Of a DNA stretch of 21,174 nucleotides, positions 10,205 through 20,736 are shown piece by piece; positions within the stretch are counted from its first letter, which is position 1; the number at the start of each line of letters is the position of its first letter. Below the pieces are notes generated by a model, which had not been told where the DNA came from, did no database searches, and saw only the letters and a program-made list of their open reading frames with translations. Origin of the DNA: a virus; IMG/VR virus record IMGVR_UViG_3300046005_000273, positions 1-21,174 of that record, one strand, 5' to 3'. A program made the position numbers and the translations under genes.

Positions 10205-10840
10205 TTAAGTGTAACTCCAATTTTTAAAATTCTTACTCTTGCTTTTACATCGCTTGCTCACGTTATTTGCTGTAATGCCGTGAGCAATGCCTGCTTCTTG
10301 CAATGAGTTAAATTCTTGCCCATTGATTATTACTTGTTTGTACTGTTTAGGACGATTTTTCATTTTATTAAGATAGATATCATCTTTCCATAAAGATTTT
10401 CTTAAAGCTGACATTTTTTGTTTATGTGTAATATCAGTTTCTAATTTCTTTAACCCAGACAATGCCTGCTCCCTATAACTAGCATTAGTTGCCCACATAG
10501 TTTTAAGGTGTTTGCTTTTTACACTTTTTAAATATTCATAAACACGAGAAGTGATATTTCCAATGCGTTTATGATTAGCATTATTCCAAGTCAAGAACGC
10601 AGACATTGCTTGCGCCATCCTGTATTGGTCTTTATCCAATGTCATCTTTACTAATAGTAAATGACAGATATAATGTTCTCTGGCTGTAAGTCTTACTAAA
10701 TTGTCTTTAGAATTACTGCCGCCCAAACTCTTTGGGATAATATGGTGAATTTCAGAATATATGTTAGTAGGAAGATTTCGTTGTTGTGCGGTAGTGATTA
10801 TAGAATAATACCACGTGGTATATTTGTTTTGTAAATACAT
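10205..10840 (-). CDS. HNH homing endonuclease, free-standing
   Basis: Predicted site-specific DNA nuclease that spreads by homing. The HNH core is complete: IHHIIPKSLGG at 31-41, N47 in KDNLVRLTAREH, then H56 and H60 in HYICH. The C-terminal part is basic; residues about 169-205 (VIINGQEFNSLQEAGIAHGI, then NVSKRCKS and NWSY) resemble the NUMOD1-type DNA-binding motif of homing enzymes. It sits on the opposite strand between gp55 and gp47 and its stop codon directly touches that of gp55, as expected for a mobile insertion into a gene boundary. The ATG has CGGAG 9 bases upstream. A late-type motif and a stem-loop lie farther upstream. Confidence 0.92.
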   Translation of the reverse strand: MYLQNKYTTWYYSIITTAQQRNLPTNIYSEIHHIIPKSLGGSNSKDNLVRLTAREHYICHLLLVKMTLDKDQYRMAQAMSAFLTWNNANHKRIGNITSRVYEYLKSVKSKHLKTMWATNASYREQALSGLKKLETDITHKQKMSALRKSLWKDDIYLNKMKNRPKQYKQVIINGQEFNSLQEAGIAHGITANNVSKRCKSKSKNFKNWSYT

Positions 10841-14773: not shown

Positions 14774-15208
14774 ATGACTTACGAATATCCTTGGACGTAC
14801 AATGGTGTAATATTTGACTCTGAGGATATTCAAACTTATTATGGCTTTATATATAGAATAACTAACACCGTAAATGGCCACGATTACATTGGCCGCAAAT
14901 ACTTCATTACCATCAAAAAGAGACCACCTCTAAAAGGCAAGAAAAACAAAAGACACCAAGTCATAGAAACAGACTGGAAAGATTATTGGGGCTCATCACC
15001 GCGTTTAATGGCTGACATTAACGCACTAGGCAAAGAGAAATTTACTCGTGAGATTATACACCTGTGTAGCTCAAGAGGCGAAACTAATTACTTGGAAGCC
15101 TATTACCAATTTAAGGAAGATGTCTTGTTGCGTGAAAACAACTACAACGGCATTATTCAATTAAAACTTGGTAAAAATTCCGTAAAAGATTTAAAAATTA
15201 CAAAATAG
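14774..15208 (+). CDS. Short GIY-YIG endonuclease-like protein
   Basis: 144 residues of a type common in T4-like phages. GFIY at 24-27 and YIGRKYF at 38-44 form the GIY-YIG signature including the catalytic Arg (R41). A Glu in NYLEAYYQF (E108) and an Asn in NYNGII sit where the family has its metal-binding Glu and final Asn, so the active site looks intact. The basic stretch KKRPPLKGKKNKR probably contacts nucleic acid. No separate DNA-recognition domain is visible, unlike the longer GIY-YIG gene upstream, so it may be a resident phage enzyme and not a mobile one. It is the last protein gene before the structured RNA region. Confidence 0.78.
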   Translation: MTYEYPWTYNGVIFDSEDIQTYYGFIYRITNTVNGHDYIGRKYFITIKKRPPLKGKKNKRHQVIETDWKDYWGSSPRLMADINALGKEKFTREIIHLCSSRGETNYLEAYYQFKEDVLLRENNYNGIIQLKLGKNSVKDLKITK

Positions 15209-15725
15209 CCAATATCGCAGTTAATACTGTGTCATGAGGTGATCCTGCTCGCGTAATGGCCGCAGGTGGAACGTGTAGATTAGACTACACACATGACGGC
15301 ACGGCATGATCAATTAGGTGTAAAAACCAAAAGATTCGGGCACTGAAACAACTCAACCCGAGAGCAAAAACATAGTTGGCTAACTACGGCTATGTGAGCT
15401 ACCGCCAGATAAATCTAGAGTAGGGAGTACAGGCTGACCGCTTCCGTGTTTATGATAACAATCTCTTTTAGTTAGTGTGATGCCGTACTCGGATGATGCG
15501 ACAGTTTGCAATTTGCCTCGGATAGGTAAATTGTGACTGATATCTGGATGATAACGTTTAAGAGCATATAATTAAATCAACTTAATTAAACGTAATAAAG
15601 AATAGAAGAAAAGGCTTTAGAGCGATAGCGATAAAGCAGATGTCGTTAGACATCTTAAACTAGTAGTCAATAAAAAAGACTATAAACATATAGCCTTTAA
15701 TATGTACTTTAAGGATAATAATGAA
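15209..15725 (+). ncRNA. Candidate large structured non-coding RNA, class unknown
   Basis: 517 bases without a protein gene. By hand count 15241-15540 is 46% G+C (138 of 300), above the flanks; 15541-15600 is 23%. Visible helices: GTCATG 15231-15236 with CATGAC 15292-15297, closing a three-way junction that contains CCTGC 15244-15248/GCAGG 15262-15266 and GTGTAG 15273-15278/CTACAC 15285-15290; TTCGGG 15335-15340/CCCGAG 15357-15362; ACATAG 15370-15375/CTATGT 15390-15395; GAGTACaGGC 15425-15434/GCCGTACTC 15482-15490; CAATTTGCCT 15509-15518/AGGTAAATTG 15524-15533 with outer CAGT/ACTG; ACGTTTAA 15554-15561/TTAAACGT 15586-15593; GCTTTA 15614-15619/TAAAGC 15632-15637 with a GA/GA internal loop; AGATGTC 15638-15644/GACATCT 15649-15655; GTAGTC 15663-15668/GACTAT 15678-15683; ACATAT 15686-15691/ATATGT 15700-15705. 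The G-U pairs in three helices would be A-C on the other strand, so plus-strand transcription is favoured. Ends are approximate; no promoter was found, so readthrough is assumed. Confidence 0.7.
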
Positions 15726-15953
15726 TTAAAAGAACGGCATTTTTGTTTTCTGTGTTGTTTCTAAGTTCTCTTTAATCAGCTTACCAATTAATTCTTTGTC
15801 TATTCGAGTTAACATCATTGCATCTTCGTAACTAATACTACCACGCATGTACCAACAAATACGTATTGCGTCATCTTTATAGGCTTTTGACTGCTTTTCC
15901 ATATTGTCTAACAAGTCGACGATTTCCTCGTTAGACAGCGTCAAAAGCCTCAT
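15726..15953 (-). CDS. Small protein overlapping gp26, likely tail assembly partner
   Basis: 75 residues, of a kind seen beside gp26 in T4-like phages; no enzymatic motif. It contains SNEEIVDLLDNMEKQ, then CWYMRGSISYEDAMML and KLIKENLETTQKTKMPFF, mostly helical. The ATG overlaps the gp26 TGA (ATGA, 4 bases), which allows re-initiation. In addition, a U UUU UUC heptamer two codons before the gp26 stop puts this frame at -1 to gp26, so a fused gp26 product of 358 residues is possible. The pair lies next to the tape-measure gene, the usual place of frameshifted tail assembly chaperones. A chaperone role is inferred from position and this arrangement only. Confidence 0.75.
   Translation of the reverse strand: MRLLTLSNEEIVDLLDNMEKQSKAYKDDAIRICWYMRGSISYEDAMMLTRIDKELIGKLIKENLETTQKTKMPFF
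15905..15937 (-). other. Stem-loop downstream of the slippery site
   Basis: TGTCTAAC (15905-15912) is an exact inverted repeat of GTTAGACA (15930-15937): an 8-pair stem with a 17-base loop containing GTCGAC. It begins 18 bases after the slippery heptamer in the mRNA, farther than the 5-9 bases usual for a frameshift stimulator. Confidence 0.45.
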
Positions 15954-16801
15954 GCGAAAAAATTTGTTTGATTAAAGTCTACTTCTAATTTATATTCGCC
16001 TGTGCATTCGCTACAGTTGATATTCATCGGTTTTAATTTATTCTGTTCAATTGCAGTGTTAACTAGCGACTTAACTTCATCATATATATTTCTAGTAGTA
16101 TTAATTAGAAAGTCTTTGATTAATTCTTGACTGCCTACTTCAGTTCCATCTTCTGTAGTAATAGATTTAATACAGCTGACTAGTGTTTTGATGTTTAAAT
16201 CTGTTAATTTTTCAAAAACTTCGTTGAAGTGTGCTTTTTTCTCTTCAGGAGTTAACTCGCTCGATTCAATGCTGGATATTAATTTGCGTTGTTCGAAGCT
16301 GATTAACCCTACTAGGTTAATATCACGGAATATCTGCGGTTGTAGTTTAAAAATTAAACCGTCAATGTTGTATGATTGATCATATGCAGTATTTGGTTGT
16401 ATGCTATCTAATACACGTCTAAGGTCAATAGAATGTGAGTTTTCGTGTCCGCAGTGTGTGCAGGTACTATCTATGTCAACTGATTCGCCGTAACTAGCTA
16501 AACGCACTGCGATCAGCACAGCATCCAAATCTACAAGAGGTAGTGCATACGGGTCTTTAATAGCAGGACAGCAACTACGAATCATTTCAGCCATGCTTTC
16601 ACCATTCATTAATGCGTCCGGTGTTCTTAGCAATAATTCATCCTTAACGGTCATTGGGTACACAGGAATTTCACCAGTGACGCCGAGTTCTACAGTTTCT
16701 GGAGGATAATATTTGCCTCCACTAGGCAATTTTAAATAGATTGCTGGTTGTCTAAAATGTTTAGCTAATGGATTATTAGCAATTGGTGCAGCCATGGTCA
16801 T
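15950..16801 (-). CDS. gp26: Baseplate hub assembly protein gp26
   Basis: Equivalent of T4 gp26, needed to assemble the baseplate hub. The N-terminus NPLAKHFRQPAIYLKLPSGG, with PVYPMTVKDELLLRTPDALMNG, is the family signature as I know it. Four cysteines form a likely zinc ribbon: C114-x2-C117 (CTHC) and C263-x2-C266 (CSEC). 283 residues against 208 in T4. The ATG at 16801 lies 4 bases after GGAG; a second in-frame ATG two codons later is a possible alternative. It is transcribed away from gp29 from a late-type motif at 16834-16842. Its last codons hold a slippery heptamer, and its stop overlaps the next start. Confidence 0.87.
   Translation of the reverse strand: MTMAAPIANNPLAKHFRQPAIYLKLPSGGKYYPPETVELGVTGEIPVYPMTVKDELLLRTPDALMNGESMAEMIRSCCPAIKDPYALPLVDLDAVLIAVRLASYGESVDIDSTCTHCGHENSHSIDLRRVLDSIQPNTAYDQSYNIDGLIFKLQPQIFRDINLVGLISFEQRKLISSIESSELTPEEKKAHFNEVFEKLTDLNIKTLVSCIKSITTEDGTEVGSQELIKDFLINTTRNIYDEVKSLVNTAIEQNKLKPMNINCSECTGEYKLEVDFNQTNFFA
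15956..15962 (-). promoter_or_regulatory. Candidate -1 slippery heptamer U UUU UUC
   Basis: In the gp26 frame the mRNA reads AAU UUU UUC GCA UGA; the last U of AAU with UUU UUC forms the canonical heptamer. A -1 slip continues CGC AUG, entering the 75-codon frame directly. Confidence 0.5.
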
Positions 16802-16851: not shown

Positions 16852-18993
16852 ATGGCCAGAAATAAAGTAAAAATTACATTACCGAGAGATCTTGGTGAGA
16901 TTGAAGTAGATAACATTGCATCAGAAGAAACTCTCGAAGCTCTGGTAAAAGCATTAGAAGCATCAAAAGGTATTGATGACAAAAATGAGAAAAAACAAGC
17001 CGATGCACTTAAAAAAATAAACAAAGCCTTAGGGGATCAAGAAGATTCGATTGAAGAGAGTATCGAAGCATCTAAGAAAGAACAAGTAGCTAAAGGTAAG
17101 TTAAACAAAGAAACAGTATCATTCACTAAAGCACTTAAAGAAGGTGGTAAAGAAGTAGGGGCTGCGTTAGGCGATCTTGCAGGTGCTAGCTTAAATCAAT
17201 TTGCCAAGTACCTTTCAAAATATGACGAAATGGCCGCAGCACCGGTTGATGCTGGTAAAGATATGCTGCAATTTATGATAGACATAACTCAGCAGACTGC
17301 TAAATTAGCTGTTGGGGTCGTAAGCGGTGGGCTTCAGGCTATGGTAGGATGGATTCCGATGGTGGGCGACGGACTCCGTGGTATAGTTAGTAAGATCGAA
17401 GGTGTAGCACAGGATATATTATCATTTGCTGGTGACATTGCTACTTTTGTTAATGACCTATTAGCTAAAGAATTTAACAAACGTATCGAAACACTTAACA
17501 TGTATGCAGCTAGCTTTGTTAGTATTGCAGGCGGATTGAGTGATGTAGCTACATTAGCAGGTGGAGCCGCTTTACCAATTAAAGTATTTGGTGAAGCAGT
17601 AACTAAAGCTCGTCCGTATCTAACAGAAATTGGTCTTGCTGGCGGTGATGCAGCTAAATTAATCAGTAGAGCTATGGGTGCTCTTGCAACTACTACGGGC
17701 AAAGGCGGTCGTGCTCTGCGCGATGAAATGTTTGCTATGGGCATCAGTTTTGCTGATCAAGGTGCTATGATGGCGCAGTACATGGCTCAGATGAAGAGCT
17801 TAGGAAAAGATGTTAAGAGTATTCCTATGAGTACATTAGCACAAGGTACCGCAGAATATGCTAAACATCTACGAGTGCTTAGTGACCTAACTGGCCAAGA
17901 TGCATCTCAATTAATGGCGCAGGCTCGTGCTGAAGCACAACGCGGTGCATTAATGGAAACTCTTACAGCTAATCAAGCTCGAGCATTCCAGGACAGTTTT
18001 GCTATTTTTAGCACACTACCCCAACAACAAGGCGCTAAGTTGCAATCAGCGTTGGCACAATTATTAGCAGGTGGTGTAGTAACGGATCCTATAATTGCAG
18101 GTAATGCAATTATCATGGATATGTTGCAGAAAACAGCTATGCAGGTAGGCGAAGGTAACATTAATATGGTTACTGCTACTCAGACTAATTTAGCTCAGGC
18201 TGCTGATGATTATCGTGCGGCAGGAGAAAGTGTAACTGACTTTGCAACCTTAATGAGTCCAACAGGCACGGGTGCAGTAGCACAAGGTATGAGCCAATTT
18301 GGTAATGCACTACGTCAATATCGATACGATCCAGGCGCCGCTAAAGCTGCCCTACAACAAACAGAAGCTATGGCTAATGCTAGTGGTGAATATGTGGCTA
18401 TAACAGAAACTATGATGGGCTTCCAAATACAAATGGAAGCACTAACTGGCGCAGCGTTACCTATGTATACAGAAGCTATGCTATGGGCAACTGAGCAGAC
18501 TATGGATGTTATGGGTGACGGTATTAAGTATATCAAAGCTATGTACGAAGCTGGTGCTGATATGACTAAACAGCTTGCAGCGATAACAGCATTAGTTGCA
18601 GACTTAGTTAATGCACCAGCAAAACCATCAGGTGTAGTAGGCGAAGTGTTGGGCAAAGTAGACGAAGGTCTTGGTAGAACTGCATCAAAATTCACTGAAA
18701 TGGTACCTGACATCAGTCTCAGAGATATGCTCACTGAATCAGCAAACGGTAACGTTTTAGAAGGTCCTAAATCGGGATATCCTGCTATGCTACACGGAAC
18801 AGAAGCTGTAGTACCGTTACCTGATGGTAGAACTATTCCTGTTGAAATTAAAAATGCAGGACAAGTTGATAATACTGCAATGAATAACCTAACAGCGGCA
18901 GTGACTGTGCAAAACACCAAAATGGACGAATTAATAGGACTGATGCAGAGAAACAACCAGCTAACTTCAGGAATATTACAAGCAAGTGTGTAG
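16852..18993 (+). CDS. gp29: Tail tape measure protein gp29
   Basis: Sets the length of the tail tube and forms part of the baseplate hub. 713 residues against 590 in T4. Residues 1-110 are charged and helical, probably coiled coil (LEALVKALEASKGIDDKNEK and onward). Hydrophobic, glycine-rich stretches follow (LAVGVVSGGLQAMVGWIPMV; SIAGGLSDVATLAGGAALPI), as in tape measures that insert into the membrane. A long alanine/glutamine-rich helical part comes next, and the end has GYPAMLHGTEAVVPLP (LHGTEAVVPL at 647-656), a motif widespread in tape-measure C-termini. Divergent gp26 and its small partner lie next to it, in the usual neighbourhood of tail assembly chaperones. The ribosome site is weak (CGGAC). 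Confidence 0.88.
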   Translation: MARNKVKITLPRDLGEIEVDNIASEETLEALVKALEASKGIDDKNEKKQADALKKINKALGDQEDSIEESIEASKKEQVAKGKLNKETVSFTKALKEGGKEVGAALGDLAGASLNQFAKYLSKYDEMAAAPVDAGKDMLQFMIDITQQTAKLAVGVVSGGLQAMVGWIPMVGDGLRGIVSKIEGVAQDILSFAGDIATFVNDLLAKEFNKRIETLNMYAASFVSIAGGLSDVATLAGGAALPIKVFGEAVTKARPYLTEIGLAGGDAAKLISRAMGALATTTGKGGRALRDEMFAMGISFADQGAMMAQYMAQMKSLGKDVKSIPMSTLAQGTAEYAKHLRVLSDLTGQDASQLMAQARAEAQRGALMETLTANQARAFQDSFAIFSTLPQQQGAKLQSALAQLLAGGVVTDPIIAGNAIIMDMLQKTAMQVGEGNINMVTATQTNLAQAADDYRAAGESVTDFATLMSPTGTGAVAQGMSQFGNALRQYRYDPGAAKAALQQTEAMANASGEYVAITETMMGFQIQMEALTGAALPMYTEAMLWATEQTMDVMGDGIKYIKAMYEAGADMTKQLAAITALVADLVNAPAKPSGVVGEVLGKVDEGLGRTASKFTEMVPDISLRDMLTESANGNVLEGPKSGYPAMLHGTEAVVPLPDGRTIPVEIKNAGQVDNTAMNNLTAAVTVQNTKMDELIGLMQRNNQLTSGILQASV

Positions 18994-19026: not shown

Positions 19027-20736
19027 ATGGCATGGAAAAAGTATTTCAAAACCGCTAACACTAGCGGGATGATGAGCCCGGTGGGTAGTAACAGTGGTAA
19101 TGGTGCTAGCATGGTTGATGCTGGGTATCGTAACTTTGCTAGTCAACTACCTGAAGTATATATTGGCCATCCAAATCGTACAGAACGATATAACCAATAC
19201 GAACAAATGGACATGGACAGCGAAGTTAATGCTGCCTTGGATATTCTTGCTGAGTTTATGACTCAAACTAATACTGAAAATGGTACAGGATTTGATTTGT
19301 TCTTTAAAGAAGATCCAACAGACAATGAAGTTAAAATTCTTAAAGATCAACTGCAACAATGGATTAGCCTAAACGATCTAAACAAAAGATTATTTAAACT
19401 AGTACGTAACACTATCAAATATGGCGACCAAGTATTTCTGCGTGATCCAGAAACATTTAAACTGTACTGGACAGAAATGTTTAAAGTTACCAAAGTTATT
19501 GTTAATGAAGCAGAAGGTAAGAAACCTGAACAGTACATCATTAAAGATCTAAACATCAACTTTCAAAACTTAACAGCAACAGCATTAAGTTCTAGCGATA
19601 CCTATATTAATCATCCACAAGTAGGTGGTCCGCAAGGCAGTTATACACAGCCAGCAACACCTTACAGTGGTGGTAGCCGTTTTAGTCATGCACAAAATGA
19701 AGCGGCTATTGATGCTGAACATGTGGTACATGTTAGTTTAACAGAAGGACTAGACTTAAATTGGCCATTCGGTAACAGTGTATTAGAAAGTATTTTTAAG
19801 ATCTTTAAACAAAAAGAACTATTAGAAGATGCTATCATTATCTATCGTATACAACGTGCACCAGAACGTCGTGTATTTAAAATTGACGTAGGTAATATGC
19901 CAACACACATGGCTATGGCCTATGTTGATCGTATTAAGAACGAAATCAGCCAACGTCGTATTCCTACACAGTCTGGTGGAGGTAGCAATATGATGGATGC
20001 TACTTATAATCCACTATCGACTAACGAAGACTATTTCTTTCCAGTGACAGCAGAAGGTCGCGGATCTACAGTAGAACCATTTCCTGGCGGAACTAACCTA
20101 GGTGAAATTACCGACTTACGTTTCTTTACTAATAAGATGTTCCGTGGTCTGCGTATTCCTAGTAGCTATTTGCCTACAGGCACAGACGAAGGTGAACGTT
20201 CATATGCAGACGGAAAAACAACCACTGCACTAATTCAAGAATGGCGCTTTAACCAATATTGTAAACGTCTACAAACACTGATCGCTGAAAAATTAGATAC
20301 AGAATTTAAAATGTTCATGCGATGGAGAGGTGTGAACATTGATAATGCACTATTTGAATTACGATTTAATGAACCACAGAACTTTGCAAAATATCGCCAA
20401 GCTGAAATTGATGCAGTACGTATTAGTACATTTACAGCGTTGGAACCTATTTCATATCTAAGCAAGCGTTTCTTATTAGAGCGTTACTTAGATCTAAGCG
20501 AAGAAGAAATGCAACGTAACGACGAGTTATGGGCACAAGAAAACGGCGCGGTAGCAGATACGGAAATTCCAGAAGCTGGTTTACGAGCAGTAGGCGTAAC
20601 TAATGCTGGAATTTCACAGGATTTAGAAAACACAGCACCACCAGAAGCTGAAGCAGAACTAGGCGTATCACCTGAAACTGGTGGAGAACCTGCTGCGCCA
20701 GCGGCACCAGCTGCACCTAGTGGGCTTGGATTTTAA
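19027..20736 (+). CDS. gp20: Portal protein gp20
   Basis: Dodecameric portal at the unique capsid vertex; it initiates prohead assembly and is the DNA entry and exit channel. 569 residues against 524 in T4. Clear gp20 blocks: QYEQMDMDSEVNAALDILAE near 57-76, YGDQVFLRDPETFKLYWTEM, EGLDLNWPFGNSVLESIFK, IYRIQRAPERRVFKIDVGNM, FFTNKMFRGLRIPSSYLPTG and the RSYADGKT segment. The last ~50 residues are a low-complexity Ala/Pro/Glu tail. It follows gp29 after 33 bases holding a late promoter and a GAGAGAA ribosome site. The identity is secure. Confidence 0.98.
   Translation: MAWKKYFKTANTSGMMSPVGSNSGNGASMVDAGYRNFASQLPEVYIGHPNRTERYNQYEQMDMDSEVNAALDILAEFMTQTNTENGTGFDLFFKEDPTDNEVKILKDQLQQWISLNDLNKRLFKLVRNTIKYGDQVFLRDPETFKLYWTEMFKVTKVIVNEAEGKKPEQYIIKDLNINFQNLTATALSSSDTYINHPQVGGPQGSYTQPATPYSGGSRFSHAQNEAAIDAEHVVHVSLTEGLDLNWPFGNSVLESIFKIFKQKELLEDAIIIYRIQRAPERRVFKIDVGNMPTHMAMAYVDRIKNEISQRRIPTQSGGGSNMMDATYNPLSTNEDYFFPVTAEGRGSTVEPFPGGTNLGEITDLRFFTNKMFRGLRIPSSYLPTGTDEGERSYADGKTTTALIQEWRFNQYCKRLQTLIAEKLDTEFKMFMRWRGVNIDNALFELRFNEPQNFAKYRQAEIDAVRISTFTALEPISYLSKRFLLERYLDLSEEEMQRNDELWAQENGAVADTEIPEAGLRAVGVTNAGISQDLENTAPPEAEAELGVSPETGGEPAAPAAPAAPSGLGF

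Follow-up and report, generated by a model that had tools for sequence, protein, structure and literature searches.

A probable programmed −1 frameshift signal in the gp26 gene of a T4-like phage, predicted to yield short and long tail chaperone forms

A 2016 review describes tail chaperone frameshifting as a widely conserved trait of long-tailed phages, "except T4" (PMC5009743). In lambda, gpG and gpGT each associate with the tape measure, and gpGT also binds the tail-tube protein through its T part (PMC5009743). For T4-like phages, the accessible part of one article states that some carry separate short and long chaperone genes (PMC10274946, citing Vladimirov, Gautam and Davidson 2022), and the accessible part of another that the short-form genes are known to contain polyT slippery sequences (PMC12846349, citing Vladimirov et al. 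2022). Frameshifted tail chaperones as such are already known, and judging from these partial sources some of the pattern reported here may have been published.

We analyzed a window of 21,174 bases, the whole of an IMG/VR virus record from a large T4-like phage. Profile searches identified T4-like genes for a gp25-like baseplate wedge, a tail lysozyme hub, a late sigma factor, a metallophosphoesterase, an SMC-type nuclease, and a portal. The minus-strand gene at 15950–16801 encodes a 283-aa gp26 homologue (PF12322 T4_baseplate, E=1.8e-20, exceeding the curated cutoff; phrog_150 baseplate hub, E=8.8e-23), which would be the zero-frame short product, a putative TAC-N. Its 3′ end reads AAT TTT TTC GCA TGA, placing the slippery heptamer T TTT TTC in the gp26 frame at 15956–15962 (minus strand), one codon (GCA) before the zero-frame stop TGA at 15950–15952. 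In the −1 frame relative to gp26, an extension of 76 codons, RMRLL...KMPFF plus stop, occupies 15726–15956 (minus strand). It consists of a CGC Arg codon followed by a 75-codon ORF with its ATG at 15951–15953 and its stop at 15726–15728. The stop of gp26 and the start of this ORF overlap as ATGA (15950–15953, minus strand). A slipped product would read ...NQTNFF-RMRLLTL... and count 282+1+75=358 residues, the extension forming the C-terminal part of a putative TAC-NC.

We consider it highly probable (roughly 0.9), from comparison of homologous genes, that the gp26 gene has, at 15956–15962, a signal for programmed −1 ribosomal frameshifting and that the resulting short and long forms make up a tail chaperone pair. 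In the proposed mechanism, the two tRNA-Phe on T TTT TTC would slip back one base, aided by an RNA stem 5–6 nt downstream. The slipped ribosome would bypass the TGA and translate 76 more codons, yielding a minority 358-aa long form alongside the 283-aa gp26. By analogy with lambda G/GT, both forms would form a coat on the tape-measure protein, with the extension serving to recruit tail-tube subunits. We infer that ribosomes actually shift at the heptamer from a comparison that covers the heptamer, the frame, the extension protein, and selection on the stem.

To assess conservation, we assembled 78 distinct gp26 sequences from cultured jumbo phages and viral contigs. T TTT TTC was found in 76 of them and T TTT TTT in the remaining two, always at the last Phe-Phe. 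The −1 frame is open for 70–80 codons in 78/78 (in one, the contig ends at 71), compared with a +1 frame median of 8 codons. Sequencing error or a pseudogene was ruled out by this identical frame relation across all homologues. The seven-T site T TTT TTT replaces T TTT TTC in RAS14 and XacN1 (loci L010 and L011); a scan of the collection with the gp26 of these two phages gave no matches. Phe-Phe is also kept as protein (T4 gp26 has KEFFELL, encoded TTC TTT), so the choice of codons constitutes the test. In a diverged subset of 44 sequences (<60% identity), the codon preceding FF ends in T in 44/44 while encoding Asn, Ser, His, Asp, Ala, Arg, Tyr, or Thr, and the Phe pair is TTT TTC in 42 and TTT TTT in two. 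Under pooled codon usage in these 44 sequences, with shared ancestry uncorrected, the chance of the T-ending codon and of the Phe-pair pattern is log10 P of about −12 and −30, respectively. Elsewhere in the homologous gp26 genes, at 19,822 further codon positions, an in-frame T TTT TTY never occurs, and it is likewise missing from all 17 additional FF pairs.

The pattern extends to a cyanophage-type group that, together with a few other T4-like relatives, has T TTT TTC in 54 of 56 distinct sequences, the exceptions being T TTT TTG and C ATT TTC (one each). The Ser preceding the heptamer in cyanophage-type genes is encoded by AGT or TCT, T-ending in both cases. The non-canonical C ATT TTC belongs to Pseudomonas phage Cygsa01 (L113, 2770–2812), in which the −1 extension is present, and suggests a different or single-tRNA slip there.

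We then considered the RNA 3′ of the heptamer. The window sequence is predicted to fold into an outer stem whose 5′ arm, AGGCTTTTGAC at 15940–15950 (minus strand), lies 5 nt past the heptamer and pairs with a 3′ arm, GTCAAAAGCCT at 15881–15891 (minus strand). This stem, which starts 5–6 nt past the heptamer, spans 70 nt and encloses a second, inner hairpin (TGTCTAACGAG...CTTGTTAGACA, 15905–15937, minus strand), also predicted from the window sequence and unconserved in sequence among distant relatives. Since the two arms of the stem double as codons for conserved residues (RLL and SKA), random synonymous recodings of the extension were taken as the null. The window folds to −31.4 kcal/mol versus −9.0±2.7 for the recodings (z=−8.4). 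Among the diverged relatives, 32 of 44 reached p≤0.05 under the same null, and in a control stretch taken from the extension itself the mean z was −0.34. Fold stability along the gene peaks sharply, and solely, in the 70 nt immediately downstream of the heptamer (mean z at offset 0, −1.75; background, about −0.15; window, −3.2).

Covariation within the stem was scored in an alignment of 36 sequences. Double (compensatory) changes numbered 40 versus 19.1±3.3 in shuffled data (0/500), with fewer in every slid register. For example, columns 18/80 hold U-A in 21 sequences and C-G in eight, and columns 21/77 hold G-C in 23 and A-U in seven. The independent compensatory events behind this support are few, 2–3 per pair, with zero discordant. 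Over all 36 rows of the alignment, RNAalifold yielded no consensus structure, partly because one subclade relocates the 3′ arm. In XacN1, a perfect 11-bp stem, CCATCAAGTCC/GGACTTGATGG, lies at 6 nt and is unrelated in sequence. Cyanophage-type genes have a short hairpin 4–8 nt past the heptamer, with the same stability bias in 41 of 55 under the synonymous null. In the RaK2-type group the heptamer and the frame are kept, and 3′ structure was not significant under that null. An upstream Shine-Dalgarno-like stimulator was found in 0/44 diverged sequences. Judged by these comparisons, the downstream stem is under RNA-level selection. We are aware of no earlier description, in tail chaperone genes, of a stimulator with a stem span of about 70 nt enclosing a second hairpin.

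The window thus combines the elements of a frameshift cassette, namely a conserved zero-frame heptamer, a coding −1 frame, and a downstream structure at 5–8 nt. The initial annotation had proposed a −1 frameshift joining gp26 to the 75-codon ORF, and this proposal is borne out by the conserved heptamer, frame, and extension together with the selected 3′ RNA structure. Rereading the sequence confirmed its heptamer, coordinates, −1 frame, and 358-aa product. It had also named conservation of the heptamer and of the relative frame in homologues as checks: the heptamer is kept in all jumbo-type genes (78/78, two as T TTT TTT) and in 54/56 of the cyanophage type, and the −1 relation, found in 78/78 of the former, is nearly universal in the latter.

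Which T4 proteins the two products correspond to was addressed by profile comparison. T4 gp26 (208 aa) and gp51 (249 aa) are encoded by separate, divergent genes, and gp51 consists of PF12322 over residues 1–201 plus a C-terminal part. Against the cyanophage −1 extension, hhalign aligned this part from the slip point onward (E=2.6e-10; 0/100 shuffles scored as well). The window-clade extension has weak matches of about 30 columns both to gp51 (hhalign E=2e-3, probability 13%) and to the cyanophage extension (E=6e-4, probability 28%), with 0/100 shuffles as good in either case; one sequence, L123, was excluded from the hhalign shuffle controls against gp51. L123 carries at 1501–1860 a T4-type gp51 homologue that ends after 120 aa though tblastn matches the whole query, possibly by a frameshift or a sequencing error. 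The extension, clearly in its cyanophage form and weakly in that of the window clade, has its counterpart in the C-terminal segment that T4 gp51 has beyond gp26, and the short and long products would therefore match the T4 gp26/gp51 pair, which has been proposed to act in tail assembly as chaperones. The same two products would probably come from one gene and a −1 shift here and from two genes in T4. The make-up of gp51, gp26-like with an added C-terminal part that matches the cyanophage −1 extension, supports the earlier suggestion that gp26 and the extension are a T4-like chaperone pair. We infer that the short and long forms are a TAC-N/TAC-NC pair whose members are the separate genes 26 and 51 in T4.

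The candidate for a tape measure at this locus is the divergent neighbor at 16852–18993 (plus strand), which encodes a 713-aa protein and whose syntenic gene in RaK2 is annotated as "similar to tail tape measure protein". Its C-terminal GYPAMLHGTEAVVPLPDGR resembles, we presume, the C-termini of tape measures. The identification of the adjacent gene as gp29 in the initial annotation was not supported: profile searches of the 16852–18993 protein gave no tape-measure match. The 713-aa protein adjoins the portal gene, and a stretch of it has an IcmQ-like match (E=2.7e-7), probably a coiled coil. Sequence similarity is low among the syntenic genes of PA5oct, RaK2, and Phosso.

This bears on a reading in which the frameshift is real and yields a component of the baseplate hub, or an assembly catalyst, in place of a chaperone for the tape measure. 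We regard this as unlikely, though it survives best among the alternatives. The neighbor is a candidate tape measure only, T4 gp26 and gp51 have traditionally been regarded as factors in hub assembly, and gp26 itself was placed in the hub by some studies (PMC3004832). The same source, however, classes both T4 proteins as hub assembly chaperones, with gp51 absent from the particle; the arrangement in two forms is that of tail chaperones; and T4-like genes for tail chaperones were named in a dedicated study (Vladimirov et al. 2022, as cited in the accessible parts of later articles).

The extension is conserved as a protein of 70–80 codons with the consensus RxRLL...WYMRGG.SYD.AM.LS..EREII.KIIK.NLETTKKSGLPFF, and its AlphaFold model is all helical (mean pLDDT 90). 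A PDB fold search (Foldseek) with the gp26 and extension models gave no significant match, tail chaperones being absent among the matches listed, and VIA-align with the gp26 model reached a best Z below 8, to unrelated helical proteins. No ATG occurs over the first 25 extension codons in 31 of the 78 homologues (~40%), and extensions without an ATG near their start, such as those of PA5oct and RaK2, are still conserved as protein from the first residue past the slip. In these two phages the extension is unannotated (L006, about 2337–2560, and L008, about 2328–2545, respectively). This, together with the missing ATG in ~40%, indicates that the conserved product is the frameshift form and that a separate protein is not. 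In Atu_ph07 the annotated small gene begins ~100 bases too late for the −1 extension.

These data weigh on translational coupling, by which the 75-codon ORF would be made as a separate small protein through re-initiation at the ATGA and the heptamer would be incidental. The overlap occurs in the window, in Atu_ph07, in Phosso, in L023, and in the L082/L090 group, and for some phages depositors annotate separate small genes at the extension. Coupling as the conserved mechanism is nonetheless very improbable, given a heptamer that is universal among homologues, an ATGA found in 6/78 and replaced elsewhere by ATA, CTA, TTA, or an unrelated codon, and an extension conserved from the slip onward in genes that lack an early ATG. 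The initial annotation had put forward re-initiation as a second output alongside frameshifting; on the same two counts, 6/78 with the overlap and 31/78 without an ATG in the first 25 extension codons, this suggestion found no support, so that the ATGA becomes a possible non-conserved re-initiation site, and re-initiation a lineage-specific side possibility. Transcriptional slippage, in which stuttering of RNA polymerase at the T run would produce some mRNAs with one base more (or two fewer) that encode the fusion, is the least probable reading of all: the T6 run in all homologues and the T7 of RAS14 and XacN1 would suit it, but the run is kept at six T plus C, shorter than known slippage runs (Tn, n>8; PMC3711429), the terminal C preserves the tandem Phe pairing of a ribosomal heptamer, and a stem at ribosomal spacing under apparent RNA-level selection fits ribosomes.

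Elsewhere in the window, a GIY-YIG homing-endonuclease-like ORF of 144 aa lies at 14774–15208 (plus strand), followed by about 500 bases (15209–15725) without a long ORF. This stretch looked like possible group I intron sequence, with zero Rfam family matches there even at E=1; Rfam and tRNA scans of the whole window gave no matches. An HNH homing endonuclease (10205–10840, minus strand; phrog_655, E=3e-34) is flanked by the late sigma factor and metallophosphoesterase (gp47-like) genes.

Returning to ribosomal frameshifting as the preferred reading, its use would be nearly universal in T4's own gene family once the T4-type phages examined are set aside. We lean toward the view that T TTT TTC with a stem at 5–8 nt is the ancestral mechanism for making the long chaperone in the whole gp26 family, and that T4-type phages lost it as the long form passed to a separate in-frame gene 51. 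T4 gp51 would then have arisen from a frameshifted ancestor and represent the long form in a permanent state. In addition, the genomes of the cultured jumbo phages PA5oct, RaK2, and Atu_ph07 appear to miss or misannotate the long chaperone, and the stem of about 70 nt, apparently selected, offers a natural stimulator to set beside known frameshift elements.

Compared with known systems, the locus resembles lambda G/GT, P2 E/E′, and HK97 in that short and −1 extended forms would come from one gene with a slippery site near its 3′ end. We know of no sequence relation between gp26 and these chaperones, and gp26 differs from them in having two CxxC motifs. The layout also departs from the lambda type: the window gp26 gene is divergent from the candidate tape-measure gene, not upstream of it and co-directional. 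The Vandenendeviridae/Andersonviridae TAC described for phage Adele, in the accessible part of the source (PMC12846349), likewise has a conserved polyT −1 site and an unannotated −1 extension recognized by comparative genomics; it differs in its invariant motif, GTTTTT, and in belonging to other phage families, and that part of the source mentions no RNA stem. Closer are the cyanophage-type genes (Sf-FS3 and viral contigs), in which a Pfam-type gp26 is followed by a small ORF called "baseplate hub assembly catalyst", and which share the heptamer, the −1 frame, and a stem 4–8 nt downstream. Their extension can be aligned with gp51; they are distant in sequence, and their short hairpin spans ~31–33 nt, whereas the window stem spans ~70 nt with an inner hairpin. 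T4 gp26/gp51 itself shares with the window a short PF12322 protein and probably a long form whose C-terminal part starts at the slip position, and differs in that T4 has two divergently oriented genes, with gene 26 lacking the heptamer, whereas the window has one gene and a predicted −1 shift.
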